64,000 bases of DNA, taken from Lathyrus oleraceus. Lineage: Eukaryota > Streptophyta > Magnoliopsida > Fabales > Fabaceae. Positions 13,633-53,652 of this stretch are shown piece after piece (position 1 is the stretch's first letter; the number at the start of each line of letters is the position of its first letter). Made by a program: the position numbers and the translations under genes. The notes beneath the pieces are model-generated. The model searched no databases, was not told where the DNA came from, and was given only the letters and a program-made list of their open reading frames with translations. The stretch is from NCBI RefSeq assembly GCF_024323335.1, contig NC_066583.1:410824031-410888030 (forward strand). The letters run 5' to 3'.

Positions 13633-14199
13633 GCTGATCCTATTTAAGGACATTCTAACTGAGGAGGTGAAGGTTAAAATCTTCGTATCAACTCAGTAGA
13701 ATGGACTTAAATAACAACATATAGAAACAAATTTTGGTCCCTAAGAGACCTCATGGTGAATATGGTATGAATGTTAAAAAGAATCTCTGTGGGGAATATG
13801 TTGCCACAGAGGAAAAGAATCTAGAGAAACTGAAAGTCCATAGGAGTATAATACATCCCGTAAGGAAAACTCACTGGGGAGACAGAGTCTTTGGGGGATA
13901 AAAGATTGTGCGTAGGCCAGGCTACGACTTAAAACTGCTGGGGGACCCGAGGGATCCATGAAAATGAATCAGTGGAAAGACTCAGTCAGGGGATAAGAGG
14001 AAATCTGCAGGGGAAACGAGAAAATCAGAACAAAAATGAAATACCCGAACCAAATAGGAAAGGATGATTTCACTGAGGAAATACACACTCAAACTCAATT
14101 GGGGAAGAAAATATCTTTAACACTAGATTAGCAGAAGCATATTATCCACTACCGGATTCTGGGTAAGGAGATAACATAATCTGACAAAGAGGACATCCG
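13633..14199 (-). other. OGR-m region before the 3' LTR, with polypurine-tract-like end
   Basis: On the minus strand the sequence ends CCTTAAATAGGATCAGC directly before the LTR start. The OGR-p counterpart is AAATAGGGGCATC, so a decayed polypurine tract is likely. Repeated short units of the form CTGGGGA/CTCACTGGGG run through the region. No coding sequence. Confidence 0.6.
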
Positions 14200-15022
14200 T
14201 TACCGGTTAGGGTAAACATATCAAGGATGACTCACTGAGGAACACAGGAGGTGTACTCATTACCAGTTACTGGGTAAGAATATCCAGCTGGGGAAAAGCC
14301 AAATAGGATTTACAACTACCGGATACTGGATAAAAGACCACAAAGAAAGAGAATATTCGTCACTGGTTAAAGTGAACATATCAAGGATAGACTTAATGGG
14401 GAGAATATCCGTCATCAATCAAGATAAACGTATCAAGGATAGACTGTCGGGAAAAAGTAGGAATTACATCTATCAGTTACTGGTTAGAATACCAAAAAGA
14501 GAATATTTGTCACCGATTAAGATGAACATATCAAGGATAGACTCCGAGGGGGGAAATAGGAATTATATCTATCAGTTACTGGATAGAAAACCATAAGAGA
14601 GAATATCCATCACCGATTAAGATGAACATATCAAGGATATACTCCGTAGGGGGAAGTAGGATTTACAACTACCGGTTATTGGGCAGGAAAACGCAAAAAG
14701 GAGGAAATCTGACATCGGTTGGGATGAACATATCAAGGATTGACCCTCTGGGGAATAAAATAGGGAAAACAACTACCTTTTTACTAGGTAGAAAACCATG
14801 AAAAGAATATCCGTCATCGATGAAGATGAACATATCAAGGATAGACTCAGAAGGAAAGAATATCTGTCATTAGTTAAGATGAACATATCAAGGATAGACT
14901 ACCTGAGGAAACATGAAACGAATCCGCTAGAAAAACAGGAGGAAGTAGATTACTGTTACCGGGTGTTGGGTAAGAGTAAAGTACTCGCAAATCAAGAAGA
15001 ATGTTACCAGTTACTGGGTAAC
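14200..15022 (-). repeat. OGR-m array of short covarying hairpins (CAGTAACY / CTAACC loops)
   Basis: About a dozen degenerate units, many with a reverse-complementary stem of 5-6 bp around a constant loop. Plus-strand examples: TTACC/GGTAA (14200-14215, loop GGTTAG), TTACC/GGTAA (14260-14277), TCACT/AGTGA (14360-14375, loop GGTTAA), TCTATC/GATAGA (14568-14587), CTACC/GGTAG (14773-14791), TCATC/GATGA (14814-14829), TTACC/GGTAA (14956-14973), GTTACC/GGTAAC (15003-15022, loop AGTTACTG). The stem sequence changes from unit to unit while both arms stay complementary. The spacer AACATATCAAGGATAGACT recurs between units. Some units (for example near 14400 and 14505) have one mismatch. Confidence 0.85.
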
Positions 15023-16329
15023 AGGCTCTCGGGGAATCAAGGTATCTATCTAGGCAAGATCTAGAAAGAAAAAGTCAATCAAAGACTCAACCCAATGAGG
15101 ATATAACTCAGTGGGAGTGGTTCCATCCAGATAATCAACTAGGGAGGAAGCTGAAATAATAATCATCCACGAGGAAATAACTCAATGGGGAATGAGAAAG
15201 GTTAAATTCTTTCTGATTAAGAGGCTGACACTCTACAATTGAAGGAGGAAAGACACGCCAAATTTGCGTGGGAGAAAGGATATCATTATAACAGAGGATC
15301 AGAAAAATAATGAATCACAAAGTGCAATAATAATGCAATAATGAAATCTATGAATGTATATGTATATGTATATATGATGATTAAGCTGGCAAAACAATCA
15401 CAAGGATACAAGTGTCAATGGTCCGAATCATCGTAACATTACTCAGCCAATCTCAATAGGATGGAGGTATCAACCGGAGAAAGAGACATTAAGGATGAAC
15501 ATGAATCATCCATCTCGAAGGGTCGTCCCTGGCTGGGGAAAGAGGACAATTTTGTTGAGGATCTGCATTATCGACTCTGTGGGGAATTTTAGGTTAATAC
15601 CATATCAAATGGGAGATAACCTTGCAAAGGACCAGAAATATTTCTCAAGAATCAGTGCTAACAGGGAGCAGGCACAAATTCTGTTGACGACTCGAGGGGA
15701 GTAACAATCTGGGCTGAATCTATGTAAATCGTTGAGACGACGCGCCTACAACTCAAAAATAGGGAGGCAATTACAAACTCAGCTTGGGAAACCAACAAAA
15801 CTAGGTTGGAGAGGTTGGGTTTCCGTTCGGGAAAAATGACCGAACCAACTGCTTGAGGAAGACCAACAATGCTTCGCAGTTTAGGACTTACTTGTTCTCA
15901 GACCGCTGTTGATGTTCCTTTAATGAAATCGATTGCTATTAAAAAGTAATTGCTTTTATTATTTAAGAAAAACATGATTTTGATTTTTAAATTCAATTTC
16001 AAAATGATCATCATAAAATTTAATTACTTTTAGCTGAATAAATAAGAGTAGAAACGATTGGATAAAAAGCTCAACTTTATTTAATAGAATGGTAGTCTGT
16101 AAATGACGAGACTCCATAGATCCTTACAAAAGTTGAAAAATGGTCATTTACATGGAAAAGGGCTACATTGGATACAATGATCACTAATCCTTCTACCAAC
16201 CTTGATATCCATTGTGCGCTTGGCTTCGGTTGAAGATGACGAATCAAAACCAACCGATGTGCTTAAGAATGTCTTCAAAATCGAAGGTCAACCGAATGCA
16301 GTTACTTTTGCCATGATCCCTAATTTTTG
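15023..16329 (-). other. OGR-m 3' noncoding region
   Basis: No coding sequence. Contains degenerate CTCAATGGGGAATGAG-type units, an AT-rich stretch with a short TATATG microsatellite near 15355, and sequence linking the hairpin array to the integrase end. Nothing else recognised. Confidence 0.6.
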
Positions 16330-16478
16330 AATAAATTGCTCCAAGGTAGGGTACTAAATTTATTGGGATAAATTTTATGTTTTATGTCTCTAACTTTTGC
16401 ATGGATCGCCCTTTCGGGTTTTCGATCCACCGAGACGCTCATTTTTGCCTAAGTTTCCCTTTAGGGTTTTCAACTTAG
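16330..16478 (-). repeat. OGR-m post-integrase hairpins (three)
   Basis: Directly downstream of the integrase end on the minus strand: CTAAGTT/AACTTAG (16449-16455, 16472-16478), TGGATCG/CGATCCA (16402-16408, 16423-16429), both perfect 7-bp stems around an inner CCC...GGG, and AATAAATT/AATTTATT (16330-16337, 16357-16364), a perfect 8-bp stem. The same three positions are hairpins in OGR-p, where the third stem has a completely different sequence. See findings. Confidence 0.88.
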
Positions 16479-16497
16479 CGAGCCGATCCTTTCCTTT

Positions 16498-17859: not shown

Positions 17860-20024
17860 TGTAACACCCCAAAATTTGCCCTCCTCATTCATGCATTCAT
17901 TTTTAGGTCATTTAACATTTCATATTGCATTTCATCATGTCAATCAGAATCAGATCCAAGAAGCTTGAACATCATTCAAGACTCTTTGTGGGTTCTATCC
18001 GGGTGATCATGCAACACAAGGCGAAGCGCACGCGTTTAAAAAAAAAAAGTAACGAAAAAATAAATAAATAAATAAATAAAATATAACAGAAAAATCTTGG
18101 ACTTGGACGTCTCTCATTTGAGCCCACAAAAATCAGGTTATAAATTCTAGACTTCCATCTCCCCAAAAACCCTGGAAAAAGATAGTGAGAGAAGAGCTAA
18201 CAGAGTTCAGAGCAGCCTCTAGAGACTGAAAGGAACTCATCTGCAAAGAGCCAATCCCATCTCATATAAACCCTCAGATTGCTTTGCAAACTCAACCGGG
18301 CAATTCAATTTCATTCGATCTCTCCAATCAGGTTTGCCCTATCTCCATTACTCTATGCTTTCAATTTGAATGCTCTGAATGTATGAGGTATTATCGTTAG
18401 GTTTTGCATGTGGGCACATGTTTTAGTATGTATGTCATGCCTTGATGTGTGGATCCTTTCCCCCTGACTTTGAATTTTGATACCCTTTTGATGCATGTGT
18501 TTGGCAAGAGGTTTAGGCCTCCTACCCTTGGTTGCTTTTTGTGAGCTTTTTGTGAACTTTAATGGCATGATTCATGTGATTCTCTGTTTGGCGCAATTCT
18601 TGATTGCACTCCATCTTGTTTCTCTAACTTGTTTGTTGAGTTTTTTTTGTGAGGGCTCACATGAACCCTGAAAGGATAGCTTGCTTGGTATTCCATTTTA
18701 TTTGTGGGATACCATTTGGAGATTTATTCTGATTACCTGTATTGACTTGCTTTCTTTGATGGTGCCAGCTTGAGATATCTCCGGGTTTCTTATTTCTTTA
18801 GTTGTTGTTACTTCGGATCTTTATCCGTATGGTAGACCTTTTTGATCCTTTATTTTTCCCGCATTTTACCGTTTTCTTAGCTGGAAGACCTCGATAGGAG
18901 GCAATGTTTTTGTGTGTTTATTTTTGTGCCTAAAGACCTCCATGAAGAGGCAATTGACGGATAAAAGGGATTAATAGTCAATCCCCCGTTATTCAGTGCG
19001 TCGTTCTTTAAGATCACACTACGTGTCGATGCTTCAGAACAAAAGCCCAAGATCTTTTTTCCGATCGGTCAGTGGAGAGGGTTCCATCTTTCTGAACCCC
19101 CACGCCTTGTCATGAGCTCACCCTGTCCGGGGTTAAGAGCTATGAGGTCTTATCCTCATTACCCTCTGATCTGCTCACCCTGACGTCAATGTCAGTGGTT
19201 AAAAGCCCGTTTGATTACCCTTCCATGGCTTGTTTGTCGAGGTTGATATGACCCCTGTTGACTAAAGCCCTACCCCTGCGTGTTTGATCCCCTTTGCTGG
19301 CGTGTTTACTTTATGCATGTTTGTTTTGTATGGTTTGATAGTCTCCCGTTTGCATGTTTATTAAGGTAGCGCGGTTCCTTTGTCTAGGACTGCCTTTTTG
19401 CATGAGCATCCCTAAAACACCCCAACTCATTGATTTTTCTTCTCCTAAGAACATGTTTACTCCTTCTACTACAGGCGAGTAAGTCTCCAAAGGTCGAACA
19501 TCCGGTAGATTGCGTAGTAACGTCGTTCACCCAAAAACACAACCAACCCCGTAGTTAGCCGAACTACGTTTTGCTCTGATTCTCATTCTAGATGAGATAC
19601 GTAGGCATAAGACGCGACGTCTTACCGAGCACACTTACCTTTAACCCATAGGTAGCCGAGCTACGAAGACTCTGATTCTCATATTCATATGAGATACGTA
19701 TGTAGTGGATGCGACATCCGTGCGAGTCATCTCCCTTTAACCCCTCTTTAGTAAATAACACATTAGATAAACCCGCACCCTTTAAACAAGAATAAAAAAA
19801 GTGGATCCCGTAGAGTACTACGGATGCGTAAGGGTGCTAATACCTTCCCTTCGCATAATCGACTCCCGAACCCAAGATTTGGTTGCGAGACCTTGTCTTT
19901 TCCTTTCCTTTCTCCCAGGTTTACTTCGAGCGTTTCCTTTCCCTCCTTTGGGATAAATAACGCACGGTGGCGACTCTTTTGTCATTTCTTTTTTGGCCGG
20001 TTGTTTTTTTCGTAGGTTGCGGCA
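17860..20024 (+). mobile_element. TAT-p 5' LTR
   Basis: Starts TGTAACACCCC, ends GGTTGCGGCA, 2165 bp. It is about 190 bp shorter than the 3' LTR because 173 bp (positions 28613-28785 of the 3' copy) are missing, joined at a 3-bp AGG. TATA-like TTATAAATT near 18138. Contains a short AAAT microsatellite near 18060. Small ORFs are not supported as genes. Confidence 0.92.
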
Positions 20025-20026
20025 GC

Positions 20027-20044
20027 TGGCGACTCTGCTGGGGA
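20027..20044 (+). other. TAT-p primer binding site (tRNA-Arg type)
   Basis: TGGCGACTCTGCTGGGGA, 2 nt after the 5' LTR. Complementary to the 3' end of plant tRNA-Arg(ACG) with about two mismatches; identical to the OGR-m site and one base different from OGR-p. This primer is known for Ogre/Tat elements. Confidence 0.88.
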
Positions 20045-20985
20045 CCCTGGTTTCCCTAAGCGAGTCCCTCCAAGCTTTTGTAGGTTGCTTGTTTGTTGGG
20101 TGTTTATCCTTTTGTACAGTTATTTATTTTTAAGCCTTTACCTGCTTTATCTTATTGCATTGTGTACATATGATTGCCGTATTTGCTGGTTCTGTTTGTT
20201 AGGGTGGGATGTTCTATGAGTGATAAGCCCATTACCCAGGCTTGAGCGTACACACAGGTTTTAGAGTGGATAGTCATGAGGCTTGCATGGCGTGTTGCTA
20301 CGTTAAGTCGTTCATGAAGACCCACACCCAGACGAGGTTTCTTTTGGATATATTTTGTCCTACAGGTGTTCCGTAACGGCATGATGCTCCTCTAGAAATC
20401 GTCGACTCTGGTGACCATTTCCCGAGAACTCAGTCGAGGCCTCTCCTCCGAGACGTGATTATGTTAGCTCTGGTGGGCGCATTCTCGCTGATCAATTCGA
20501 GGACCCCGAGACTGGGAACTTGCTATTAGGATGTCCTGTTGAGGGGAGTCAGCGGAGGTCTTTTTATCCCGTAATAATGCCAAACCTTCAGTGGTAAACG
20601 TATTATTCTCGACTGAAGGGCTGAAGTTGACGAACTTCTGTTCTTAGAACCTACCAGTGAGGGGCGGGCTAAATTCAGGAAACCTTAACCTTCAACCCAC
20701 CCGGTTTTCTGGAGCAGCGCTTTGATCTTGTATTATATTCTTTAGTGGGGTTTCTCTTCAGACAGTGCAACCTGACAGATGTTCAAGCGGATCCAGCAAT
20801 CCTGATTGACATGCCTTTGCATTGCATAACATCATCTGCATATTTGCATCCAACATCTCATGCTTATTCATTTGGGGGTATTCCCTTTTTTAAGGGGGGT
20901 GCCTTAAAATTGAATAAGCAGCGCATCGCATACCATGCATACTAACCCTTGTTTATTTTGCAGGTGTCACCGCAGTGTCTAAAGT
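20045..20985 (+). other. TAT-p leader between primer site and gag
   Basis: About 940 bp without a supported ORF. There is no ORF1 here, unlike in OGR-p and OGR-m, where the corresponding stretch continues into a long ORF1. Confidence 0.7.
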
Positions 20986-22531
20986 ATGTTCCCTGTTTCA
21001 AGCATTATTGGTCCCAAGCGAGTCCACAGGTACCCGACAAAGGAAAATCGTCTGCAACTAGCGATGGACCAGGTACAGAAAGAGCTAGCTGATATGCGTG
21101 AAAGGATGGATCAGTTCATGACATTGATGACTGGTATGGCAGAAGCCCAGGAAAAGCTGAGGGAATTGGTTGAGCACCCGAGGCCCGATCCAGAGGTACA
21201 GATACCAAATGCTGATGGGAACGCTGATAACCCTGTGAACACTGGTAATGCGGGTAACACGAATGCTGATGGAAACCCGGGTAATGTTGGCAACGCGGGG
21301 AATGTTGGAAATGGTATTGGCGGAAGGTACAATGTTAATAAAGGAATTCGGATTAACGGGCGCCCCGTTACTGAAGATTATCAGTATGATCAATTCTCTT
21401 TGCACGACGAAGCCCATGAGACCACTCGCCGTATGGATGAGCTTGCTGAGAAGCTCAAATCTTTGGAGTCTCAAAATTCCTTAGGTGTTGATGTCACAAA
21501 TCTTGGTCTGGTTCAGGGAGTAAGGATCCCTCACAAGTTCAAACCCTACTACTTTTAAGAAATACAACGGGGCTTCTTGCCCACGCACTCATCTCCAATC
21601 TTATTTGGGAAGGTTGGGAGCCCACGCGAAAGATGAAAAGCTGTGGATGTACTACTTTGAAGACAGTCTAATTGGAGCTTCTCGTGAATGGTATTCTCAT
21701 TTGTCTCGTACTTCCATCAAGAGCTGGAAAGACTTGGCAGAGGCTTTTGTCAAGCAATATCAATACAACTTGGACTTGGCTCCAAATTGGACCTTATTAC
21801 AAGGAATGTCTCAGACTGCCAAGGAGACCTTCAGAGAATATGCTCAGCGTTGGAGACAAATTGCTGCGTCCGTCCAACCCCCTATGTCTGAAAGGGAGAT
21901 GGCGGACATGTTCATGAACACTCTTCAAGGCAATTATATTGAGAATTTGGCTGCTTGCCCGTCAATCAGCTTTGCAGAGATAGTAATTGCTGGAGAAAGA
22001 ATCGAGAGTCTGTTGAAGATGGGCCGAATTCAAGACAATAGTGCTTCCAAGAAACCGTTTGCTGGTAACGGTCAGCGAAGAAGAGAAGGCTAGACAAGCG
22101 TTGTGTATGCCGACAGAGGCAGGGGCAGAGGACGCCCTAATTATTATCAAGATCAAGTGGCCGCAGTCACTATTCCTACACCTGCTCCTCAACAGCAACA
22201 ACAGCCGCAATATCATCCGCAACAGCAACCCAGGTACAACAATCAACAGCGAGGAGGTAATTCGGGTCAACAGAGACACTATCAACAACGTCCAAGGCAG
22301 ACGGAACGGGTCATTGAGCCAATCCCCGTGCCTTATTCTGTATTACTTCCCAGGCTGATTGACCTGAATCTGGTTACATTAAGGACTCTGGCCCCACCAA
22401 TCGATCCCAATAATTTTCCTAGAGGTTATGATGTCAACGCCAGATGTGCTTTTCACTCCAACGCACCTGGCCATACTACAGATAATTGCAAGGCTCTCCA
22501 GCTAAAGGTACAAGATTTGAGAGATGCCTAG
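20986..22531 (+). pseudogene. TAT-p gag (frameshifted)
   Basis: Capsid polyprotein. It starts with an ATG; an early HRYPTK block corresponds to HRYNTR in OGR-m. A heptad-like helical segment (QLAMDQVQKELADMRERM) is followed by a low-complexity Asn/Gly-rich linker built of NADGN, NAGN and NPGN units (about residues 75-112). A one-base indel near 21550 shifts the frame; the capsid core then runs at 21560-22090 (WYSHLSRTSIKSWKDLAEAF, ETFREYAQRWRQIAASV). After a TAG at 22091 come a Gln-rich stretch and the zinc knuckle CAFHSNAPGHTTDNC, of the form Cys-x2-His-x5-His-x4-Cys. A TAG at 22529-22531 replaces a probable Trp codon. Confidence 0.87.
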
Positions 22532-24373
22532 GATATCAATTTTTCTCCGGTGCCTAATGTTATCCAAAACCCGATGCCAGCCCACGGCGGGCAGAGGATT
22601 AATGCTATTGATAGTGGGGAAAATTTGAATTTGGTTTCTGATGTGACTAAAGTGAAGACTTCGCTATCGGTGGTTAAAGACCGACTCTTGAAAGGATAGA
22701 TTTTCCCGGGCTATGGGGAAGATTGCAGAAATTGTCAAGCTGCCGAGAATGGATGTGACAGTTTGAGAAAAGGTATTCAGCAACTGATAGAAGAAGGTTG
22801 TCTTCAGTTCGATCAGACCCGTCCAGTGAAGAATGATGTGTCGACAGTGACGATTTATTTCACTCCTGAAGAAATATATGTTCCCGAGAGACCCGCTCCG
22901 ATAACAGTATATTTCCCAGAAAGTACAGAACTAGCAACAGTGAACGTCGAAAGTCCAGCACCAATTACAATTTACTCTGACAGCCCTCAATCGGCTTTGG
23001 TTAGTCCAGTCACCCTCACGGTACCAGGACCTGTTCCGTATGAGAAAGACAGAGCTATCCCGTGGCACTATGGGGCTGATATCTACTTCCAGGGGCGGAA
23101 AGTTAACAGGGAAGACATTGACATTGGTAGCTCCGCTGTAGACAATGTTGGAGGGGTTGGTGGCTTCACTCGCAGTGGACGCCTATTTGCACCATCAACA
23201 TTGCGCACGAATACTGAAGCTGAGGCAGCTGCCAAGGCTAAAGGAAAACAGGTAGCCACCGAAGAGGTTACTACTGAGGAAGCTCCTCCTAAGACCGCAT
23301 TCGAGAAGGAAGTGGATGAGTTTATGAGGATTATTAAGAAAAGTGACTACAAGGTAGTCGACCAGCTAAATCAGACACCCTCAAAGATCTCCATTCTCTC
23401 ACTATTGATGTGCTTTGAGGCGCACAGAGCAACCTTGTTGAAAGTACTGAATATGGCATATGTTCCACCAGAGATAACTGTTAACCAGCTGGAGTCGGTA
23501 GTTTCAAATGTAAACTCTAGCCATGGGCTAGGTTTCACCGACTACGACCTGACATCGGAGGGCAGGAGTCACAACAAAGCTTTGCATATCACAATGGAAT
23601 GCAAAGGGGCGGTGCTTTCCCATGTTTTGGTTGATACATGCAATTCTCTGAATGTTCTTCCAAATAAAGCCTTAATGAAGTTGGATTGCGGTGGCATCAT
23701 CCTGAAGCCAAGAAATTTAGTTGTGAGGGCTTTTGATGGCTCTAAGAGATCTGTCTTTGGCGAGATTGAGTTGCCAGTTAAGATTGGACCGCAGGTGTTA
23801 AAGAGCATATTTTGTGTGATGGATATCCAGCCTGCCTATAGTTGTCTGCTAGGTCGGCCCTGGATTCATGCCGTCGGTGCTGTTACTTCTACTCTCCACC
23901 AGAAGCTCAAATATGAACTAGAAGGTCAGGTCGTCATTATCTATGGTGAAGAGGATATTTTTGTTAGCCATCTGTCTACATTTAAGTATGTGGAGATGGA
24001 TGGCAAGATGCATGAGATGTTGTGTCAGGGCTTCGAAGCCATAAACATCAGTGAGGTCGCTCCCAAAGCTGTCTTTTCACCTAAGTCCGAGAAGGTCGGG
24101 ACTTCTATCTCTTCATACAAGCAAGCTGTTGAAGTGGTTAAAGCTGGTAATGCCCAAGGCTGGGGCAAATTTGTGGAGCCAGCCATCAAAGAAGACAAGT
24201 TTGGATTGGGGTTTACTCCGGGGTCTCAGAAGAACGAAGTCGGTACTTTCTCCAGTGGGGGTTTGGTTTCTCCCCACATCGTCAATGATGCAGATGAAGA
24301 CAAGGCTGACAGCGACTGTGACTTAGATAGCTGGATTCGCCCGTGTGTCCCGGGAGAAAAGCTCAACAATTGA
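22532..24373 (+). pseudogene. TAT-p protease region
   Basis: Same reading frame as the gag C-terminus. After a TAG at 22697-22699 (probable Trp codon, context KG-stop-IFPGY) an open stretch of 536 codons runs to the stop at 24371. It holds a proline-rich linker, VDQLNQTPSKISILSLLMC, and the retropepsin-like domain: HVLVDTCNSLNVLP, where the catalytic triad Asp-Thr-Gly reads Asp-Thr-Cys (23633-23641), then KAFDGS-like VRAFDGSKRSVFGEIELP, SCLLGRPWIHAVGAV and STLHQKLKY. The Gly-to-Cys change in the active site should inactivate it. The end of the frame corresponds to the splice-donor end of pro in OGR-p, but no convincing donor is seen here. Confidence 0.85.
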
Positions 24374-24660
24374 TCGTCCGAAAAAGTCGTCCGGGTTACT
24401 CTACTGAAGGAGTAATTTTTATTGTTTTCCTTTTATTACATGCATAATAAAGTCTTACACTTTTCCCAAGGTGTAATAACTCATCTATAGGGTCATCCAT
24501 TTAGTTACATTTCGCAATTATTTTCATCATCAATAAAGGACAACTTTTGCAAACAATTTTGTGTTCTCTTTCTTTCAATTATTTTACCTTTACAAAAAAT
24601 GGCAATGTTTCTCTTTCGTTCTTCCTTCCAAAAATCTCTCGTTCTAAGGTAAAGCATGAT
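24374..24660 (+). other. TAT-p spacer between pro and RT, possible intron
   Basis: AT-rich stretch with no coding match. It sits where OGR-p and OGR-m carry the pro/RT intron. CATCATGCAG at about 24666-24675 resembles their acceptor (TTATGCAG) and would give the same phase, but a donor is not clear. Confidence 0.45.
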
Positions 24661-24675
24661 CCTCCATCATGCAGA

Positions 24676-25715
24676 AATGAATACCCGGATCTCACTGCTA
24701 ACGACACTGTTATGGCCAAGTATGACTTCGATAATCCTATCTATCAAGCCGGAGAAGGGGTTGAGGAAGATTGTGAATTACCTGAAGAGTTAGCCAGGTT
24801 GTTGAAAAAGGAGGACCGAACTGTTACACCTTATCAGGAGGTGATTGAGACCGTCAACATTGGTACCGAAGACGACAAGAAAGAGATCAAGATCGGGGCC
24901 AGTCTACAGGCCGAGGTGAAAGAACAGTTGATCAGTTTGCGTCGTGAGTACGTCGACATCTTTGCTTGGTCCTATCAAGATATGCCAGGTTTGGATACAA
25001 ACATCGTTGTGCACAGGTTACCGTTGAATGAAGATATGCCGTCGGTGAAGCAGAAGTTACGCCGAACTCATCCCGACATGGCAATGAAAATCGAAGACCG
25101 TTGATCATGTACTTGACGGTGTTAGAAGGGTCAATGGGTTGTGTGCTCGGTCAGCATGACGAGTCAGGTCGAAAAGAGCATGCAATATACTACCTTAGTA
25201 AAACGTTTACCGACTGTGAACAAAGATACTCACTGCTCGAGAAAACTTGTTGCGCTTTGGCATGGGCTGCTCGCCAACTAAGACAGTATATGTTGACTCA
25301 CACGACTCTATTGCTATCAAAGATGGATCCCGTTAAGTATATTTTTGAAAAGCCAGCGCTTACCTGAAGAGTTGCTATGTGGCAAATGATACTGACAGAG
25401 TATGACATCCAATACACTTCACAAAAAGTCATCAAAGGAAGTGTCTTGTCAGACTATCTTGCAGAGCAACCGATTGATGATTACCAACCTATGAGGTTCG
25501 ACTTTCCTGATGAGGACATCATGTTTCTCAAATCGAAAGATTGCGAGGAACCACTCCCGGAGGAGGGGCCTGACCCTGAATCCAAATGGATCATGATGTT
25601 TGATGGGGCGGTCAACGTCAATGGTCGCGGAGTTGGTGCAATGTTGATCACGCCAGAGGGGGTTCATATGCCATTTTGTGCCAGAATAACTTTTCCCTGC
25701 ACCAACCATGAAGCC
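24676..25715 (+). pseudogene. TAT-p RT N-terminus fused to RNase H remnants (RT core deleted)
   Basis: The RT N-terminal extension is clear (FAWSYQDMPGLDTNIVVHRL, KQKLRRTHPDMAMKIED). At about 25100 the sequence jumps straight to the end of the RT connection and the Ty3-type RNase H (LIMYLTVLEGSMGCVLGQHD, YSLLEKTCCALAWAARQLRQ, KYIFEKPALT). In OGR-p about 700 bp with the catalytic YVDD lie between these points. GAAGACC is shared at the junction. A stop at 25365 precedes WQMILTEYDIQYTSQ and the start of the archaeal-type RNase H (IMMFDGAVNVNGRGVGAMLI), which is cut off at about 25715. In this family the Ty3-type RNase H is degenerate: there is no Asp at the usual first site. Confidence 0.88.
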
Positions 25716-26026
25716 GATACAATCAGCTGAGCCTAGTTGAGGAAAAGAGACTAGCAGCTATATGCCATGGCCAACTATATCAGAGACGAATGAAGAGAGC
25801 GTTTGATCAGAAAGTACGCCCTCGGGAGTATCAAGTCGGCGAATTGGTACTCAAAAGAATTCTTCCTCCCAACACATATCGCAGGGGCAAATGGACACTG
25901 AACTATGAGGGTCCATACATGGTTAAAAGGGTTTTCTCTGGCAGAGCTTTGATGCTAACAACCATGGATGGCGAAGACTTCCCATCCCCTGTCAACTCAG
26001 ACGCAGTTAAAAAATACTTCGCATAA
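25716..26026 (+). pseudogene. TAT-p integrase C-terminal fragment
   Basis: After the second deletion only the integrase tail remains: LVEEKRLAAICHGQLYQRRM, then KRAFDQKVRPREYQVGELVL, GKWTLNYEGPYMVKRVFSG and the end NSDAVKKYFA, matching the OGR-p end at 49928. The join with the archaeal-type RNase H is around 25710-25728. The rest of that RNase H, the zinc-binding domain and the whole catalytic core (about 1.2 kb in OGR-p) are missing. Confidence 0.88.
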
Positions 26027-26034
26027 TTGACCCG

Positions 26035-26217
26035 CTGGACAAAAGAAAAAGAGTCCAGGCAAAAAAGGGCATCCCGACGAACCAAGAAAAAAAGAGGTTC
26101 GGGCAAAAATTAGGGATATAAAAAAAAAATGTACACCCGATGAGTCGAAAACCCGAGAGGGCGGCTCAGGCAAAAAAAGGGTATCCCGATGGATTGAAAA
26201 CCCAAAAGGGCGGTCCA
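26035..26217 (+). repeat. TAT-p post-integrase hairpins (four)
   Basis: Four hairpins in tandem: CTGGAC/GTCCAG (26035-26040, 26053-26058), CGAACC/GGTTCG (26078-26083, 26096-26101), TGAGTCG/CGGCTCA (26141-26147, 26162-26168, one G-T pair) and TGGATTG/CGGTCCA (26190-26196, 26211-26217, two G-T pairs). The last two enclose an inner CCC-nnnn-GGG. Each is preceded by a CCCG-like box and followed by GGCAAAAA-like sequence. Same position as in OGR-p and OGR-m. Confidence 0.88.
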
Positions 26218-27346
26218 TGCAAAAGAGGGAATAAGCGAATGACTGCGATCTAAATTCATCTGTGTTATATCACCATTTCATTCAAGCCGACAATCTCCGA
26301 AGGTTAAAGATCGACTAATCATCCACTTCAGAAAGCAAGATGAGTAGAGCGTCTTGAGGTCATACGAGCCATAGCAAAGTCGAAACTCAGTGGGACCCGT
26401 ATCCACATTGCCATTAGGATAGTTTCTTTTGTTCAATTTATAGCGATCGCCTCATTTCAGGGATCAGCTTCCTGATGTACTCGCGTATTCCTGGCACAAA
26501 TTTTTCAACCAATGAAAGTCGAATAATTCAATTAAAAAGCCTCTTTATTTTTCATTTATCAGTGTGTTTGCAAAAGATGTCTGAATCTTTGATGAAACAT
26601 ATTGCATCTGAATATAATGGTGGCTTTTGTAGATGATTTGCACAGGAAAACATTTAAAATTGCTTTCAATGTGCTTAATCCCGGACGGTGAATTCAAACC
26701 GAATAATTCCCCCGGGACATACGTGTGTGATTGTAGGTCACAGGAACCGGATGCCAAGTCATGAATCATCATCCCTAAGCGGTTGACAAAGTCTCTCCTC
26801 AGTAGAGCATGTCCCCCAGTAGAGTTGCACCTTGTATCCTCAGCAACAGCGGAGTAGTTGCATCCCCAACAGACAAGAGGGTGGTATTCCCAGTGCTCAT
26901 CCCATTCCCCAGCAGATTATTTTTAACAGATTTGTTTTGATCCTCATCCTAAGGACGATTAGCATGTTCACATCCCCCAGCAAAGGTTGATTCCTACGAC
27001 ATTTCCCCAGGAAGTGCTTTCCCCACAGACTCCCCTCACAAAGCCTCGCCAAACAAAGTTCCCAATAGTTGATACCCCCCCAGCAAGGTCAACTTTTCAA
27101 AAAAAGGGAGAGCCGATTTATTTTTGGTGGTTCCCCGGTCCTGGAAGACGGATCATTCCCCCACAGAGCATTCAAGGATTGATGCAGCGATCCGTTCCCT
27201 ACCAGAATTTGCTTCCCCAAGCAGATTTCTTTTTGCACCATGCATAATATTGGCATTTGCATGCATATCATATCAAGCATACGCATAATCTGATAAACAG
27301 GTTCTTCAAAGAAGACTGAAGAGTTACTTTACAACCAAAGTCATGA
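26218..27346 (+). other. TAT-p 3' noncoding region with CCCCAG units
   Basis: No coding sequence. From about 26780 to 27240 degenerate units of the form CCCCAGCAGA or CCCCAGTAGAG recur every 25-40 bp. OGR-p has the same motif in its 3' region at 50590-51800 and OGR-m at 13640-14100 in reverse. Confidence 0.65.
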
Positions 27347-28287
27347 GATTCAGCCAGAGGATCGAGTGTGTGTGATCCAGCATGAGGGTCAGTTCAAAGA
27401 TTCAGCCTGAGAATCGTTTTTCAAAGAGCCAGCCTAAGGTTCAATTTGAAGACTCAGCCAGAGAGTCGCCTGCAAGCGTTATTTCCCCTGCAAGCCAGCT
27501 GGAGGAGTAGATTGACAGCTCAACAGAAAATCAGCCTACAAGAGGATCCAGCCCGCGGGTCGCCATTTAGAAAACAAAAGTCTAATTGAAGAGTCGTTAC
27601 AACATGTTCTTGCCTGAAGAATATGTACGAAGCCCAAAAAGTGGAATATTCTCGAAGCTGCATATCCAACATGAAGATTGGGTGTAGATTTCGGAAGAGG
27701 GTCAACCAGCGCATGCCTCAGGTGCGAGATCCTAATGATGGGAATTTATCAACGAAACAATCCAGATCTAGCCAGAAGATCGAAATCAAATTCAGCCAGA
27801 GAATCAAAGAGAATTGATTCAGCCAGAGAATCGAAACAAGTAGATCTAGCCCGAAGACCGACAATAGATTCAGCCAGAGAATCAAAGAGAATAGATTCAG
27901 CCAGAGAATCAAAGGGAATAGATTCAGCCAAAGAGTCAAAGAGAATAGATTCAGCCAGAGAATCAAAGAGAATAGATTCAGCCAGAGAATCAAAGAATGA
28001 AGATCTAGCCAGAAGATCGAAGTAGATCTAGCCATAAGATCGAAGAAGATCTAGCCAGAAGATCGAAGTCAGATTCAGCCAGAGAATCAAAGACGATTCA
28101 GCCAGAGAATCGAAACAAGAAGATCTAGCCAAAAGATCGAAGTAGATCTAGCCGAGGATCAAAATCGTATCCAGCCCGAGGATCAAAATTAATATCCAAC
28201 CAGAGGACTAAATTGAGTATAGATTCAGCCAGAGGATCGAAACTCCAAGTTAAGTCAGAAGACCGATTCAGATCCAGCCAGAGGATC
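27347..28287 (+). repeat. TAT-p array of 17-nt covarying hairpins
   Basis: About 25 copies of a 17-nt unit: a 5-nt arm, a 7-nt loop close to AGCCAGA, and a 5-nt complementary arm. Arms seen: GATTC/GAATC (27399-27415 and many later), GATTC/GGATC (27347-27363), GATCC/GGGTC (27374-27390), GAGCC/GGTTC (27426-27442), GACTC/GAGTC (27451-27467), GATCT/AGATC (27765-27781), GATCC/GGATC (28271-28287). Changes in one arm are matched in the other, often through G-T pairs. From 27800 the units are regularly spaced every 25-27 bp with AAAGAGAATA spacers. Exceptions with a mismatch occur near 27843 and 28192. A reading frame rich in SARESK repeats crosses it and is an artefact. Confidence 0.9.
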
Positions 28288-28436
28288 GGAAGAAAAATAA
28301 ACAGCGCGGTGTATTTCAGCATTTTTGTGGTGTTCTCAGAGAGCAAATTTTTGGGTTGTCTTTGGTATTCAATCACAGCTCACCTTGTTTGTCTGATAAA
28401 TTGTTCGCTTTCATCCAGCTCGGGTTAGCTGATGAT

Positions 28437-28450
28437 TGAATAGGGACAAC
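28437..28450 (+). other. TAT-p polypurine tract
   Basis: GAATAGGGACAAC directly before the 3' LTR start; the same layout as AAATAGGGGCATC in OGR-p. Short and mixed, so only a likely tract. Confidence 0.6.
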
Positions 28451-30806
28451 TGTAACACCCCAAAATTTTCCCTCCTCATTCATGCATTCATTTTTAGGTC
28501 ATTTAACATTTCATATTGCATTTCATCATGTCAATCAGAATCAGATCCAAGAAGCTTGAACATCATTCAAGACTCTTTGTGGGTTCTATCCGGGTGATCA
28601 GTCAACACAAGGGAAAGACTTAAGCTACTTCCAACAGGTTCAAATGGGGTCTATTCATCACTCAAAGCGCTAATCTTGAAGAAGCAAAATCTGTCCCCGA
28701 GCTGTCATGCTCCCTAGGCGAGTAGCGTGGTTTGCTTAGAAAAAGGAATTGGCATGCTCGCTAGGCGAGCAAATCCTTCGCTAGGCGAAGCGCACGCGTT
28801 TTAAAAAAAACAAAAAAAAACAAAAGAAAAACAAAAAATAAATAAATTAATTAATTGATAAAATATAACAGAAAAATCTTGGACTTGGACCTCTTTCATT
28901 TGAGCCCACAAAAATCAGGTTATAAATTCTAGACTTCCATCTCCCAAAAAACCCTAGAAAAAGATAGTGAGAGAAGAGCTAACAGAGTTCAGAGCAACCT
29001 CTAGAGACTGAAAGGAACTCATCTGCAAAGAGCCAATCCCATCTCATATAAACCCTCAGATTGCTTTGCAAACTCAACCGGGCAATTCAATTTCATTCGA
29101 TCTCTCCAATCAGGTTTGCCCTATCTCCACTACTCTATGCTTTCAATTTGAATGCTCTGAATGTATGAGGTATTATCGTTAGGTTTTACATGTGGGCACA
29201 TGTTTTAGTATGTATGTCATGCCTTGATGTGTGGATCCTTGCCCCCTGACTTTGAATTTTGATACCCTTTTGATGCATGTGTTTGGCAAGAGGTTTAGGC
29301 CTCCTACCCTTGGTTGCTTTTTGTGAGCTTTATGTGAACTTTAATGGCATGATTCATGTGATTCTCTGTTTGGTGCAATTCTTGATTGCACTCCATCTTG
29401 TTTCTCTAACCTGTTTGTTGAGTTTTTTTTGTGAGGGCTCACATGAATCCTGAAAGGATAGCTTGCTTGGTATTCCACTTTATTTGTGGGATACCATTTG
29501 GAGATTTATTCCGATTACTTGTATTGACTTGATTTCTTTGATGGTGCCAGCTTGAGAGATCTCCGGGTTCCGTATTTCTTTAGTTGTTGTTACTTCGGAT
29601 CTTTATCCGTACGGTAGACCTTTTTGATCCTTTATTTTTCCCGCATTTTACCGTTTTCTTAGCTGGAAGACCTCGATAGGAGGCAATGTTTTTGTGTGTT
29701 TATTTTTTTGCCTAAAGACCTCCATGAAGAGGCAATTGACGGATAAAAGGGATTAGTAGTCAATCCCCCGTTATTCAGTGCGTCGTTCTTTAAGATCACA
29801 CTACGTGCCGATGCTTCAGAACAAAAGCCCAAGATCTTTTGTCCGGTCGGTCAGTGGAGAGGGGTCCATCTTTCTGAACCCCCACGCCTTCTCATGAGCT
29901 TACCCTGTCTGGGGTTAAGAGCTATGAGTTCTTATCCTCATTACCCTCTGATCTGCTCACCCTGACGTTCAATGACAGTGGTTAAGAGCCCGTTTGATTA
30001 CCCTTCCATGGCTTGTTTGTCGAGGTTGATATGACCCCTCTTGACTAAAGCCCTACCCCTGTGTGTTTGAGCACCTTTGCTGGCGTGTTTACTTTATGCA
30101 TGTTTGTTTTGTATGGTTTGATAGTCTCCCGTTTGAATGTTTATTAAGGTAGCGCGGTTCCTTCGTCTAGGACTGCCTTTTTGAATAAGCATCCCTAAAA
30201 CACCCCAACTCGTTGATTTTTCTTCTCCTAAGAACTTGTTTACTCCTTCTACTACAGGCGAGTAAGTCTCCAAAGGTCGAGCATCCGGTAGATTGCGTAG
30301 TAACGTCGTTCACCCAAAAACACAACCAACCCCGTAGTTAGCCAAACTACGTTTTGCTCTGATTCTCATTCCAGATGAGATATGTAGGCATAAGACGCGA
30401 CGTCTTACCGAGCACACTTACCTTTAACCCATAGGTAGCCAAGCTACGAAGACTCTGATTCTCATATTCAGATGAGATACGTATGCAGTGGATGCGACAT
30501 CCGTGCGAGTCATCTCCTTTTAACCCCTCTATAGTAAATAACACATTAGATAAACCCACACCCTTTAAACAAGAATAACAAAAGTGGATCCCGTAGAGTA
30601 CTACGGATGCGTAGGGGTGCTAATACCTTCCCTTCGCATAATCGACTCCCGAACCCAAGATTTGGTTGTGAGACCTTGTCTTTTCCTTTCCTTTCTCCCA
30701 AGTTTACTTCGAGCGTTTCCTTTCTCTCCTTTGGGATAAATAAGGCACGGTGGCAACTCTTCTGTCATTTCTTTTTTCGTCGGTTATTTTTTCGCAGGTT
30801 GCGACA
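28451..30806 (+). mobile_element. TAT-p 3' LTR
   Basis: Starts TGTAACACCCC, ends GGTTGCGACA, 2356 bp. It is nearly identical over long stretches to the 5' copy, which lacks 28613-28785. That extra part carries palindromes GCTCGCTAGGCGAGC (28756-28770) and TTCGCTAGGCGAA (28777-28789), also found in the solo LTR at 619-652. TATA-like TTATAAATT near 28919. Confidence 0.92.
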
Positions 30807-49930: not shown

Positions 49931-49949
49931 AATAAAAACAAATAGCTCG

Positions 49950-50104
49950 CTAAGTTAAAAACCCAAAAGGGCGGCTTAGGCAAAAATGAGCGTCTCGGTG
50001 GATTGAAAACCCAAAAGGGCGATCCAGGAAAAAGTTAGAGACATTAAAAATGAATATATATATATATCCCGCTAGATTGAGTACCTCACCCTGGGGCAAT
50101 CTAG
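49950..50104 (+). repeat. OGR-p post-integrase hairpins (three)
   Basis: Twenty bases after the integrase stop: CTAAGTT/GGCTTAG (49950-49956, 49973-49979, G-T pairs), TGGATTG/CGATCCA (49999-50005, 50020-50026, one G-T pair), both around CCCAAAAGGG, and CTAGATTG/CAATCTAG (50072-50079, 50097-50104, perfect). Flanking boxes such as GGCAAAAATGAGCGTCTCGG and CAAAAATTAGGGAT are shared with OGR-m, where the third stem has a different sequence that still pairs. Confidence 0.9.
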
Positions 50105-52291
50105 GCAAAAATTAGGGATTTAGCAAGTAACTGCATCCTGACAAGACTTTGTTTTTCAAGCCGTCTTCTGTCAAAGATTCTCGCTCAGTCACCGTCAACT
50201 GAAGCTTCAAATACATTGGATTCAGAGTTGGTGGAGAAATGGTCATTATGTTCAATGTATCCTTTTTCCAATATATATCACCAATTTCAAATTTGTAAAG
50301 ATCCATGGAGTCTTGCCATTTGCAGACTACCATTCTATCCAATAAATTTGAGCCTTTATCCAATCCCTTGCACTCTTATTTGTTTCTGTTTAACAAATGT
50401 TTGCATGTTTTAATTGATAAATATCATTGTTTTAAACAAATAAAGTTTTATAAATTGTTTTAAACAAAGTGAACATTTCACAATGACTGGAAGGATAAAT
50501 GGAATGTCTTCAGTGCTCTCCCAAGGATAGTACGATTTCCAAAAGGGTAAGGCATTTGTTCATATTCCTAGCATATTTGTGTCCTCTTCATCATCTTTCA
50601 GGTTGTCTCCTCAGTGAGCGCAGAAAGGTAATACACCACCAAAGTCCCCAGAGAGTCTAGAGTTTGGTCTCAGCCTTCTAGCTCCCCAGTGAGTCTGGAT
50701 CTAGCATCGGTGTTTTATCATTTATATGGTTGTCATCCCTTGTGGGGATTGACCTGAATCCCTTATAGATTGAAAAATTGACATGCTATCCTTTTTCAAG
50801 GAAGTTGGTCTTCCCTCATTAAGATTGGAAACCTCCCGCAGAGTGAGCAGGAAATCCCAGCATGAGGGGGATTTTTAACAAGTTGGTTTGTAGCTTATCC
50901 CCAGCGGATTCGCATACATTGATATCCAGCAGGTTTGCCTACCGTTCATCCTCAGCAGGTTTGCTCACATTAGACTCCCCTAGTTTGGTCACCAGCAGGT
51001 TATCTCCAGCTGATCTCCTACAGGTTATCCCCGGTTCAATCGTCAACAATTTTTCCCTAGTGGAGTTGCCTGATCGGAGCCTGATTGTTGTTGCTTCCTC
51101 CTTCTCGGATAGTTTCCTCCTAGAAGAGTCGGTGATGAAAATGTTTATTTTCTATCCCCAACGGAGCGGTGTTTCTCTTCTCCTCGGCAGAGATTGTTTC
51201 TCCAGCAGTATGAGGAAATGTGATGGTTATTGGAACTTTTGTTTGGTGGTTATTCCCCACGGAGTTTCATATATTTCCTTGGTTTTTCCCAGTAGAGTTA
51301 CTTCTACGGTGGATCTTATCTGTGTTTAACTTCCCCAGCTAAGGCTCTACCTGATCCTAGTTTGGCTTTGGAACTTCGAGGAGGATGTGTTGATTCCTTA
51401 CCTAGTGGAGTGACTGGTTCTCCTTCTCCGCGACAGAGATATTCCTTCCGTGGTTAGAAGTGAATGTTTTATTTGATGTTCTTCTGTTTAATGGTTGTTC
51501 CCCATAGAATTCCACATCACCCCCTGATAAGATCCCCAGTAGAGTTCTTCTATGACTGATCTTATCCATGTCTCTGCTTACTGTTGGAAGATCCCCAGTT
51601 TTGGTGCTTGTGACCCTTTGCTTATTCCCAACGGCGGTCTCTGATCCCCGGTGATCCTGCTTGTTCCCCTAGCAGTGGTCTTTGTCCCTGGCAGCGACTT
51701 CGCTCGATCCTCAAAGGTGATTGGCTTCCTGGTATTTGTTGCCCCCATCAGAGTGGATGTTCCCCTGAGGGCTTGGCTTTCTCTTATGAGATGTTGTACC
51801 GGTTGATTCTTGGACCTGTTTGTGTTAGATATGTCTGTTTGTCAGCATTAATCATTAATAAACAATGCATATACATGCATATTTATAGCATTCAGATATT
51901 CATGTTGCATCTTTTGCCATATATCTTTGCTTGTTATATCCTGCTAGGTTGTGAAATGTTCTTCCCCAAGCAGATGTTTGTGTCTGATCTCTCCATTTAG
52001 AGTCAACCCCATTAGGCAGAAAGTGTCTATCCTTTCTTCCATATTCCCCACTGAGTTACGTCCTCGTGGATGATTATTGCTTCAGTTTCCTCCCTAAATA
52101 TGTATTGGGATGGAATTACTCCCCTGAGTTATATCCTCATTGGGTTGAGTCTTGTTTCATTGCGTCTCTCTAGTTTGTCCCTAGATTGACTCCTCTTGTT
52201 ATTTTCCCCTGCAGTTCCCTGTGGTTCAGATGATCAATTACTCCGTAAACAGTAATTGTTCATTCTCTTCCCAGTGAATTTTTGTGGCCTT
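50105..52291 (+). other. OGR-p 3' noncoding region with CCCCAG units
   Basis: No coding sequence. From about 50590 to 51800 it is filled with degenerate CCCCAGCAGG / CCCCAGTAGAGTT units 20-50 bp apart. An AT microsatellite (TATATATATA) lies just upstream near 50057. The 155-codon open stretch at 50862 has no recognisable domain and crosses these repeats; I do not call it a gene. Confidence 0.65.
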
Positions 52292-53209
52292 CTACCCAGT
52301 ACCCGGTAGTTGTAAGTCCTATTTTTGTGGATTACTACCCAGTAACCGGTAGTTGTAAACCCCATTTTGTCCCCGTGCAGAGTTAAACCTTGATTATTGT
52401 TCATCCTAACCGATGACGGGTACTCTCTTCTGTGGTTTTCTACTCAGTAACCGGTAGATGTAATTCCCTCTTTGTTGGTTATCTTTTTCTAGTATTCGGT
52501 ATTGATACTCCTTCAGTTTTGAGTATACCACCCAGTAATCGATGATATATCTCTTGGATAATTGCTCTGATTAAGCAATTTATCCCCAGCGAGTCATCTT
52601 TTATTTGCCCTTGTTTGGTAATGGTTGTTTCTCCCCTTTGATTGGTCATCATTATATTCCCAGTAACCGATATCCCAATGTCCTTTCTTTTTGGTTGATT
52701 TATCCTTTATTAACCCAATAATCGGTTGTGGATAATCTTCCATTCGATTATATTATCTATGTTTTGACGGTAATAGATAATATATCTCATGCGCTCTTCA
52801 GTCGAAGCCTTTATTCTTCCCCAGTAGAGTAAGATTCGTATTTCCTTATGGGACCGAATGTCCATCTTGTAATCGAGTTCGCTTTTTCAGCCCTCCTTTC
52901 GGATGATGAGTGTCTTGGAAATATTCCCCAATTCACGCCTGGTTGTTCACCTATTATATGCCCAGTAACCGGTATCCATGGTGTTCCTTCCTTTCTTCTC
53001 CCTATTATGACTTTTTGTCCCCTATGGAGTCCGATTTTCCTGAGTTGAAATATACCTTTTAGGTTTTCCTCAGATGTTCGGATGATCAATATCTCTCACC
53101 TTTATACCGGTCTTAGATATTCTTTCTCCCTGAGCATGTTGCCTTTTCACCCTCATACCGGTGTTTTGATCACATGTCTCTTCGAGCTTATTACCCAGTA
53201 ACCGGTAAT
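52292..53209 (+). repeat. OGR-p array of short covarying hairpins (CAGTAACY / CTAACC loops)
   Basis: Dispersed units 40-100 bp apart: CTACC/GGTAG (52292-52309 and 52335-52352), TCATC/GATGA with loop CTAACC (52401-52416), CTACT/GGTAG (52440-52457, one G-T pair), ATTACC/GGTAAT with loop CAGTAACC (53190-53209). Others near 52510, 52660 and 52970 are weaker. Loop types and stem behaviour match the OGR-m array read on its own sense strand. Confidence 0.82.
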
Positions 53210-53652
53210 ATCTCATTGTTCTCTTCCTCGGCTGAATCCCTTTCAGGTTATTCCCCATCCAAGTTTGTTGTATTGGCATATTCCCCAATACATGCATCTT
53301 TGCGTCAGCTCGAGTCTTTCCATTGATTTATTTTCATCGAATCCCTTCGTGTCTCCCAGCAAGTTTCAAGTTGTGACCTGCTCACGAATTTTTACCCTTT
53401 ACTCCCCCAGAGTCTCTGTCTCCCTAGTGAGTGTATTACTCCTTTGGATTTTCAGTTTCTCCTGATTTCTTTTTTCCTTTGTGGACATATATCCCCATAG
53501 AGTATTAACTTTTGCATACATACATTTGCATCATGAGGTCTCTTAGGGACCAAAATTCGTCTATTTGTTATTATTTAAGCCCATTCTAACTCGTCGAGAC
53601 GAAGATTTTAACCTTCATATCTTCGGCTAGAATGACCTTAAATAGGGGCATC
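53210..53652 (+). other. OGR-p end of internal region with polypurine tract
   Basis: Noncoding. The last bases AAATAGGGGCATC (53640-53652) are the likely polypurine tract just before the 3' LTR. The 130 bp before it match the OGR-m counterpart at 13633-13770 on the other strand. Confidence 0.7.

Follow-up and report, generated by a model that had tools for sequence, protein, structure and literature searches.

Constant loops on covarying stems in the 3' UTR of a Tat/Ogre-lineage retrotransposon: a predicted RNA docking array

Are the matched arms of a tandem array in a plant retrotransposon an accident of repetition, or do its units work as hairpins in RNA? The question is raised by positions 27347-28287 of the window (the whole stretch of 64,000 nucleotides of Lathyrus oleraceus DNA analysed here), which belong to the 3' UTR of element A, on its sense strand and between pol and the 3' LTR. 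The original prediction had read there about 25 strictly 17-nt hairpins. The unit design is indeed 5+7+5 nt with the loop AGCCAGA, and all five arm pairs, Watson-Crick (WC) or G-U, form in 23 units, of which the one at 27687 has an unrelated loop. Three one-mismatch units carry the loop (27789, 27843 and 28168), the remaining one-mismatch candidates in 27347-28287 having unrelated loops or lying off register. Two units are weak (28193, with two mismatches, and ~28248, with one), and in unit 28145 the loss of one base has abolished the in-register pairing. The original observation is confirmed, with the length of 17 nt holding for most units and not for all. The seven arm combinations named beforehand were all present, together with others: GATTC/GAGTC (27921), GTTCT/AGAAT (27606) and, in other copies of the family, GGTCT/AGACC. 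As had also been claimed, the early units (27347-27467) are the most diverse and yet all pair.

Table 1. Coordinates of the elements, hairpin arrays and structured motifs in the window
Feature	Position	Strand	Remarks
Family B hairpins, loops CAGTAACY and YTAAYY	14149..15021	-	3' UTR of minus-strand Ogre-type element
Motif, three copies	16316..16480	-	Minus-strand Ogre-type element; third copy weak (E 0.12)
Element A (TAT-p; Tat/Ogre-lineage LTR retrotransposon, family A)	17860..30806	+	Broken pol
Element A 5' LTR	17860-20024	+	
Element A gag domain	21605-22093	+	Pfam PF03732
Motif, four tandem copies (26033, 26075, 26138, 26187)	26033..26233	+	Element A, just after integrase remnant
Early diverse units (27347, 27374, 27399, 27426, 27451)	27347..27467	+	17 nt each, five pairs each
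Isolated unit, arms GATCC/GGGTC	27545-27561	+	GATCC/GGATC in 24/30 copies
Isolated unit, arms GTTCT/AGAAT	27606-27622	+	
Main array	27765..28138	+	15 units, 6-10 nt linkers; starts 27765, 27789, 27816, 27843, 27867, 27894, 27921, 27948, 27975, 28002, 28025, 28048, 28072, 28095, 28122
Array end	28145..28287	+	28145 decayed, 28168 one mismatch, 28193 weak, 28222, ~28248 weak, 28271
Element A 3' LTR	28451-30806	+	
Motif, three copies	49948..50119	+	Plus-strand Ogre-type element
Family B hairpins, loop CAGTAACC (8 nt), also CTAACC (6 nt)	52238..53208	+	3' UTR of plus-strand Ogre-type element

Element A was inserted inside a minus-strand Ogre-type (Tat) element. Its LTR pieces agree at 95.5% over 2025 columns and at 98.2% over 166, its flanks (GCAAC and CCAAC) are alike at 4/5 positions, and directly after the 5' LTR stands TGGCGACTCTGCTGGGGA, a putative PBS that we take to match tRNA-Arg. 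Its ORFs are short, and its pol remnants were recognised from the DNA of two other Tat elements in the window, to which they are ~70% identical. In Ogre/Retand elements a second RNase H lies between RH and INT, as RH-aRH-INT (PMC6317226). Such a second domain was found in the minus-strand sibling, where RT_RNaseH is followed by a partial RVT_3 within one ORF and INT (rve, H2C2) occupies a separate ORF on the far side of the inserted element A; on this point element A is placed by similarity to its siblings only. Another hallmark of the Tat clade, a long 3' region with tandem repeats, is seen in element A itself: ~2.2 kb separate the end of the INT-region similarity from the 3' LTR, and the array there was found by TRF. 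A coding role of the array region was rejected, since no ORF of at least 150 aa, sense or antisense, occurs in 26230-28450. Elsewhere in the window, a solo LTR of the same family (277-2934, plus strand) has ATAAT at both flanks, and a C-rich repeated word (CCCCA, often followed by GYRGA) runs on the plus strand through both 3' UTRs, at 26814-27215 and 50646-53493.

The palindromes are not those expected by chance. Counting WC-only 5-bp hairpins with loops of 4-9 nt, we found 20 in 27340-28300 (961 nt), compared with 3.7+-2.0 in 60 dinucleotide shuffles, a control in which the repeats themselves are destroyed. The MFE of the array region had a z of -3.38, none of 20 shuffles being equally stable, and a scan of arm offsets around AGCCAGA (29 sites in the element A 3' UTR) had its optimum at exactly 0/0, with a z of 6.9. 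The repeated word CCCCAG, used as a control in the same 3' UTRs with fewer sites, gave no clear arm pairing (best z 2.6). On these three results chance palindromes were rejected.

The original prediction had proposed comparing joint changes of both arms in related copies with those in shuffled arms. Scoring 40 of 3400 candidates gave 30 loci of family A (L001-L030, the window's own copy included), 83-100% identical, in which the early-unit sites were also followed. Units were chosen blind to their arms, by loops within one change of AGCCAGA; the aligned copies yielded 845 (143 distinct), a set that includes off-register decoys such as ATCGA/TTCAG. Paired cells amounted to 81.0%, against 59.1+-1.1% when the arms were re-dealt (maximum 62.1 in 500 deals), and in the count that had been proposed, both sides had changed in 167 cells, where re-dealt arms gave 44.6 (maximum 74). 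Related copies are not independent in these statistics, and neither are cells, because recombination can shift whole hairpins between sites. Pairing fell to 33-48% when the register was slid by one base, and to 18-48% when the 3' arm of the loop-selected units was slid by 1 or 2. A comparison of 19 sites across the 30 copies revealed that every site has its own majority stem and that most departures from it belong to one copy; on the flank tree, paired switches within a site were few. Among sites picked by hand, and hence chosen for pairing (24 in A, 10 in the plus-strand and 14 in the minus-strand Ogre-type element, B+ and B-), the family A majority stems comprise nine distinct arm pairs, all fully paired, and 0/5000 shuffles did as well.

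The same design recurs with other loops. Both Ogre-type elements of the window carry the loop CAGTAACY (8 nt) and the loop YTAAYY (6 nt) on covarying stems. For B+ we compared 30 copies (L031-L060, the window included, from 40 scored of 13,429 candidates), whose majority stems are CTACC/GGTAG, TTACC/GGTAA, ATACC/GGTAT, TAACC/GGTTG, ATGCC/GGTAT, TTACT/AGTAA, TCATC/GATGA and, with one A-C, CCACC/GGTGA; for B- there were 11 sequences, the window and 10 of 40 places, and the outer pair at the orthologous site 14161 is T-G, T-A, G-C or C-G in different copies. Paired cells reached 86.4% in B+ (71.5% re-dealt), 85.6% in B- (71.2%) and 77.8% in the 6-nt loop class (60.2%), with both-side changes of 64 vs 19.0, 38 vs 11.4 and 38 vs 13.4, respectively. 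Slides of the register pointed the same way. At the hand-picked sites, the 8 distinct majority arm pairs of B+ average 4.875 pairs (1/5000 shuffles as good) and those of B- are fully paired in 7/7 (5/5000). When the B-element 3' UTRs were scanned in full on the sense strand, G-U pairs included, hairpins were barely denser than in shuffles (177 vs 169 and 117 vs 113), so the signal lies in the loop classes and not in overall structure. Changes shared among B+ copies gave A-C 38 times and G-U 10 times; several of the A-C involve the G of the CpG formed where the loop's final C meets the arm, and may reflect decay, perhaps through methylation. In B, ACCGGT spans the border of loop and arm. A separate structure in the 3' UTR of the plus-strand element, seen by eye, is the perfect 9-bp inverted repeat GATAAGATC / GATCTTATC at 51526-51566 (plus strand), whose 23-nt loop contains CCCAGTAGAG.

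A third loop came from an unselected sample of Tat 3' UTRs marked by a conserved post-integrase word. From the first 20 places listed on contig C1, two were skipped (a neighbour repeated at 7.7-kb steps) and 18 were fetched, 1.0-3.4 kb downstream. A locus was counted when three or more units sharing a loop class were fully paired, a threshold set after the table had been seen; by this measure 11/18 carry hairpin arrays: one with loop A (L076), five with loop B (L071, L075, L078, L082, L086) and five with the loop CGGTAA, here called family C (L073, L077 and L081 by de novo discovery, L083 and L084 later, the last two lying 6 kb apart and perhaps not independent). L079, with two paired units, and L080, with one, stayed below the threshold, and none of the A, B or C loops was found in L072, L074, L085, L087 and L088 (5/18). 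The last three were scanned for known loops alone; in L072 and L074 the de novo loop search also found no array, a search that is insensitive because it returned nothing for L079, L080 and L082 despite their known-loop units (few in two, five in one). On the opposite strand no locus had more than one unit per class, in a scan of three classes that left out the 6-nt B class. The array of L076 (G000:C1:1559227-1561627) belongs to an A subfamily whose early units, with the loop AGCCTGA, were amplified at a step of ~52 nt, late units being present besides.

Family C stems include GATGT/ACATC, GGTGT/ACACC, GCCAT/ATGGC, ACCAT/ATGGT, GATAT/ATATC and GATAC/GTGTC. Pooling the four loci in which eight or more units pair gave 40 distinct units with a mean of 4.12 pairs, against 3.22+-0.12 in shuffles (maximum 3.65 among 1000), and 16 arm pairs were fully paired. 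Exact copies of one family C unit, GGTGTCGGTAAACACC, number 14,438 in the 3.80-Gb genome (reversed control 0); at G000:C1:1486070-1486756 this unit is repeated 12 times at a satellite-like 61-bp step, and elsewhere at 84 bp steps. The pattern GATNNAGCCNGANNATC, which itself fixes the outer three pairs, has 54,809 genome-wide matches vs 21 for its reversed control, and of the first 100 matches listed, from eight C1 arrays, 94 pair at both free positions by hand count.

Do the stems form in RNA? Majority pairs at the hand-picked sites were 227 WC, 12 G-U and 1 unpaired, and changes private to a single copy gave G-U 41, A-C 38 and transversions 44 times, that is, they were indifferent to pairing. 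Independent mutation of the arms, which the original prediction took as its refutation, is thus what the private changes display and what the family-level differences do not. Since the hand-picked sites had been selected for pairing, the count was repeated with sites chosen by loop alone (40/41 with at least 3 pairs): the majority pairs were then 178 WC, 9 G-U, 2 A-C and 11 other mismatches. The resulting excess of G-U over A-C at the family level (9:2, vs 37:32 for private changes) is suggestive and not significant (Fisher p 0.106). Folding separates the strands: mean stem probability was ~0.50 for the sense strand (25 values) and 0.10 for the antisense, although 10/25 units had a global pair probability <0.3 on the sense strand. 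The preference is confined to the array stems, the antisense being the stabler strand when folded whole (-269 vs -234 kcal/mol), and the first ten units folded alone gave -0.1 to -4.6 kcal/mol. The original prediction is thus supported in part. Four lines of evidence favour RNA pairing around a constant loop (covariation, dependence on register, stems that fold on the sense strand, and recurrence in other families), and the array very probably consists of functional RNA hairpins; the suggestion that a protein binds the loops is a reasonable conjecture.

Three known kinds of RNA structure were rejected. A known Rfam family was rejected, with no match at the gathering cut-off in the window and none at E<=1 in the 3' UTR (25900-28460). 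By eye, self-complementary words in the loops AGCCAGA, CAGTAACC and CGGTAA do not exceed 2 nt, which disfavours dimerisation by kissing loops. The anticodon and T arms of tRNA also have 5 bp and 7 nt, and their loop consensus is U33 or a TTC-type loop, respectively; AGCCAGA has neither, and a tRNA mimic was rejected.

A second structured motif, 47 nt long with a 6-bp covarying stem, stands directly after the integrase in all three elements (Table 1). Its best copies contain a GAAAA/C internal loop, a CCC/GGG stem with a GNRA-like loop and then a G-C-A-rich tail; in element A the inner stem and GNRA-like loop are found in the last two copies. The search of 61 sources (the window and L001-L060) gave 107 matches, all within the window and L001-L030. 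In an alignment fitted to the model, which favours it, 98.3% of outer-stem cells are paired, each of the six pairs is changed on both sides somewhere, and both-side-changed cells number 99 vs 29.2 shuffled; slides left 17-54% paired. Pair types showed no excess (11 vs 12.1 in shuffles), and the inner stem hardly varies. The motif core GAAAACCCGAAAGGGCGNNNC has 33,482 exact matches genome-wide (reversed control 0). With the array and the motif, the same 3' UTR employs one design twice, an invariant apex carried by a stem that covaries; the motif is possibly as interesting as the array.

What might the array do? The best explanation, to which we give a probability of roughly 0.6, is a cis-acting multivalent docking array on the genomic RNA for a putative loop-reading protein, perhaps Gag. 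The sense (genomic) RNA would display the same loop on a row of short hairpins joined by purine-rich linkers, the stems being kept for pairing alone; a constant loop on a free stem would be the trace left by a loop-reading partner, and weak hairpins on short linkers would suit avid, cooperative binding. Tandem amplification during replication could supply new units, and selection on replicating copies would maintain pairing, inserted copies then decaying neutrally. The hairpins, their covariation, the sense-strand preference of these stems and the presence of several families are what the analysis shows. From them we infer selection rather than mutational matching, a protein as reader, and Gag and packaging as reader and role: that the array is a platform for a loop-reading protein is predicted as likely, and Gag with packaging is a tentative proposal. 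One host contains families with different loops (AGCCAGA, CAGTAACY, CGGTAA), so that a reader encoded by the element is likelier than a host factor, and because this partner apparently evolves with the element, Gag would be the first choice, in selective packaging of the genomic RNA; a signal for nuclear export or retention would be the second.

A CTE/RRE-like signal of this second kind, recognised by a host protein and not by Gag, is unlikely. It would fit the position between pol and the 3' LTR, and a soybean Ogre relative has a gag-pol intron, in the description given by PMC3305785, so that spliced and unspliced RNA may both need to leave the nucleus. Were the reader a host protein, every family should have the same loop; the loops differ, though B and C share GUAA, which leaves a host reader some room.

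The main rival to a functional array is mutational matching, in which template switching by reverse transcriptase or DNA polymerase within a quasi-palindrome copies one arm from the other, so that arms match without function. It offers a mechanical account of the matched arms, and the stems of family C do run on, a sixth pair being paired in 29/40 distinct units. The longer palindromes that it predicts are not seen in family A, where the sixth pair is paired in 24.5% and the stem ends at 5 bp (48% and 36% of distinct units in B+ and B-). It also predicts perfect arms with no bias between G-U and A-C; among arm pairs recurring in at least 4 loci (A and B) or at least 2 (C), 15 are all-WC, 18 have WC plus G-U and 6 include A-C, the rest being 15 with other mismatches (decoys and true array units) and 8 non-stems. 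The G-U bias speaks against mutational matching and needs more families, the count with loop-only sites being not significant. Against the functional reading itself, four recurrent A array units (TATCC/GGATC, TATCC/GGACT, GGTTA/AGACC and GATTA/AGACT) keep real mismatches. Mutational matching leaves the constancy of the loop across units and families unexplained, and we consider it improbable.

An ordinary minisatellite, with two or three palindromic founder units amplified and covariation reduced to founder variation, is very unlikely. The late units of the array are near-identical, as it would have it, and two stem types (GATTC/GAATC and GATCT/AGATC) make up 423/825 loop-selected units. Against it stand the nine majority stems of A and the 16 paired combinations of C, the same design in three loop families, and the five early, non-amplified units, every one of which pairs in spite of their having the greatest diversity; loop-selected pairing and family C largely refute it. 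DNA palindromes bound by a dimeric protein, suggested by arms that are inverted repeats, were rejected and are scarcely credible: such a protein would demand fixed half-sites and leave the spacer free to change, the reverse of the constant loop and varied arms seen here. The sense strand also tolerates G-T pairs, and these stems hardly form on the antisense.

A docking array of RNA hairpins would change how these repeats are regarded. Tandem repeats in the 3' UTRs of Tat/Ogre/Retand elements were reportedly treated by Macas in a 2009 paper in Gene. The passages devoted to them in PMC7004042, PMC11963269 and PMC3305785 describe DNA repeats; those of Retand are there called of unknown function (PMC11963269), and the minisatellites of soybean GmOgre are mapped as DNA (PMC3305785). 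Like the array, they lie between pol and the 3' LTR, consist of family-specific tandem units, are hypervariable and are a source of satellites; they differ in being treated in these passages as DNA, with no hairpin reading. The words 'hairpin' and 'secondary structure' have 0 occurrences in the main texts of PMC7004042, PMC11963269, PMC3305785 and PMC6317226, and no hairpin reading of such repeats was found in the searched titles and beginnings of abstracts, a collection with subscription journals mostly outside it. The enod40 RNA, which took up transposon stem-loops according to the portion of PMC10578108 concerned, is a different matter. In Lathyrus sativus, Ogre makes up 45% of the genome, and most of the satellites studied there originated from its 3' UTR repeats, in the account of PMC7004042.

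Covarying hairpins with family-specific loops suggest that the repeats have an RNA job and are not junk, and they bring the function of the repeats within reach of experiment, by asking which protein recognises the loop. That the hypervariable 3' UTR repeats of Tat/Ogre elements are in general a fast-evolving functional RNA, with family-specific loop codes, a co-evolving element-protein reader and satellites as fossils, is an idea to which we give somewhat less than even odds. If it is true, each family would single out its own RNA in a crowd through a loop code, the repeats would no longer be mere by-products of replication errors, and plant satellites would become readable as relics of RNA elements.

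Known RNAs offer partial parallels. The Xist A-repeat and Drosophila roX present tandem stem-loops in one RNA as a protein platform, as proposed for the array; they are host chromatin RNAs, not parts of a retroelement, and their loops and stems are unrelated. The MS2 operator is likewise a hairpin read through its loop, and engineered arrays of it are used to tag RNA; it is naturally a single high-affinity site, with another loop and a bulge. Closer are the multiple packaging signals of RNA viruses, several stem-loops per genome with a common loop motif in the examples given by PMC7612645 (RGAG loops in HBV), PMC8677749 and PMC5431903 (parechovirus), and the array has, as predicted from sequence, the same many stem-loops with a common loop and variable stem. 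In those examples the viral signals are read by capsid or core protein and are dispersed through the genome; the array, known from its sequence, is clustered, tandem and rather evenly spaced in the 3' UTR.
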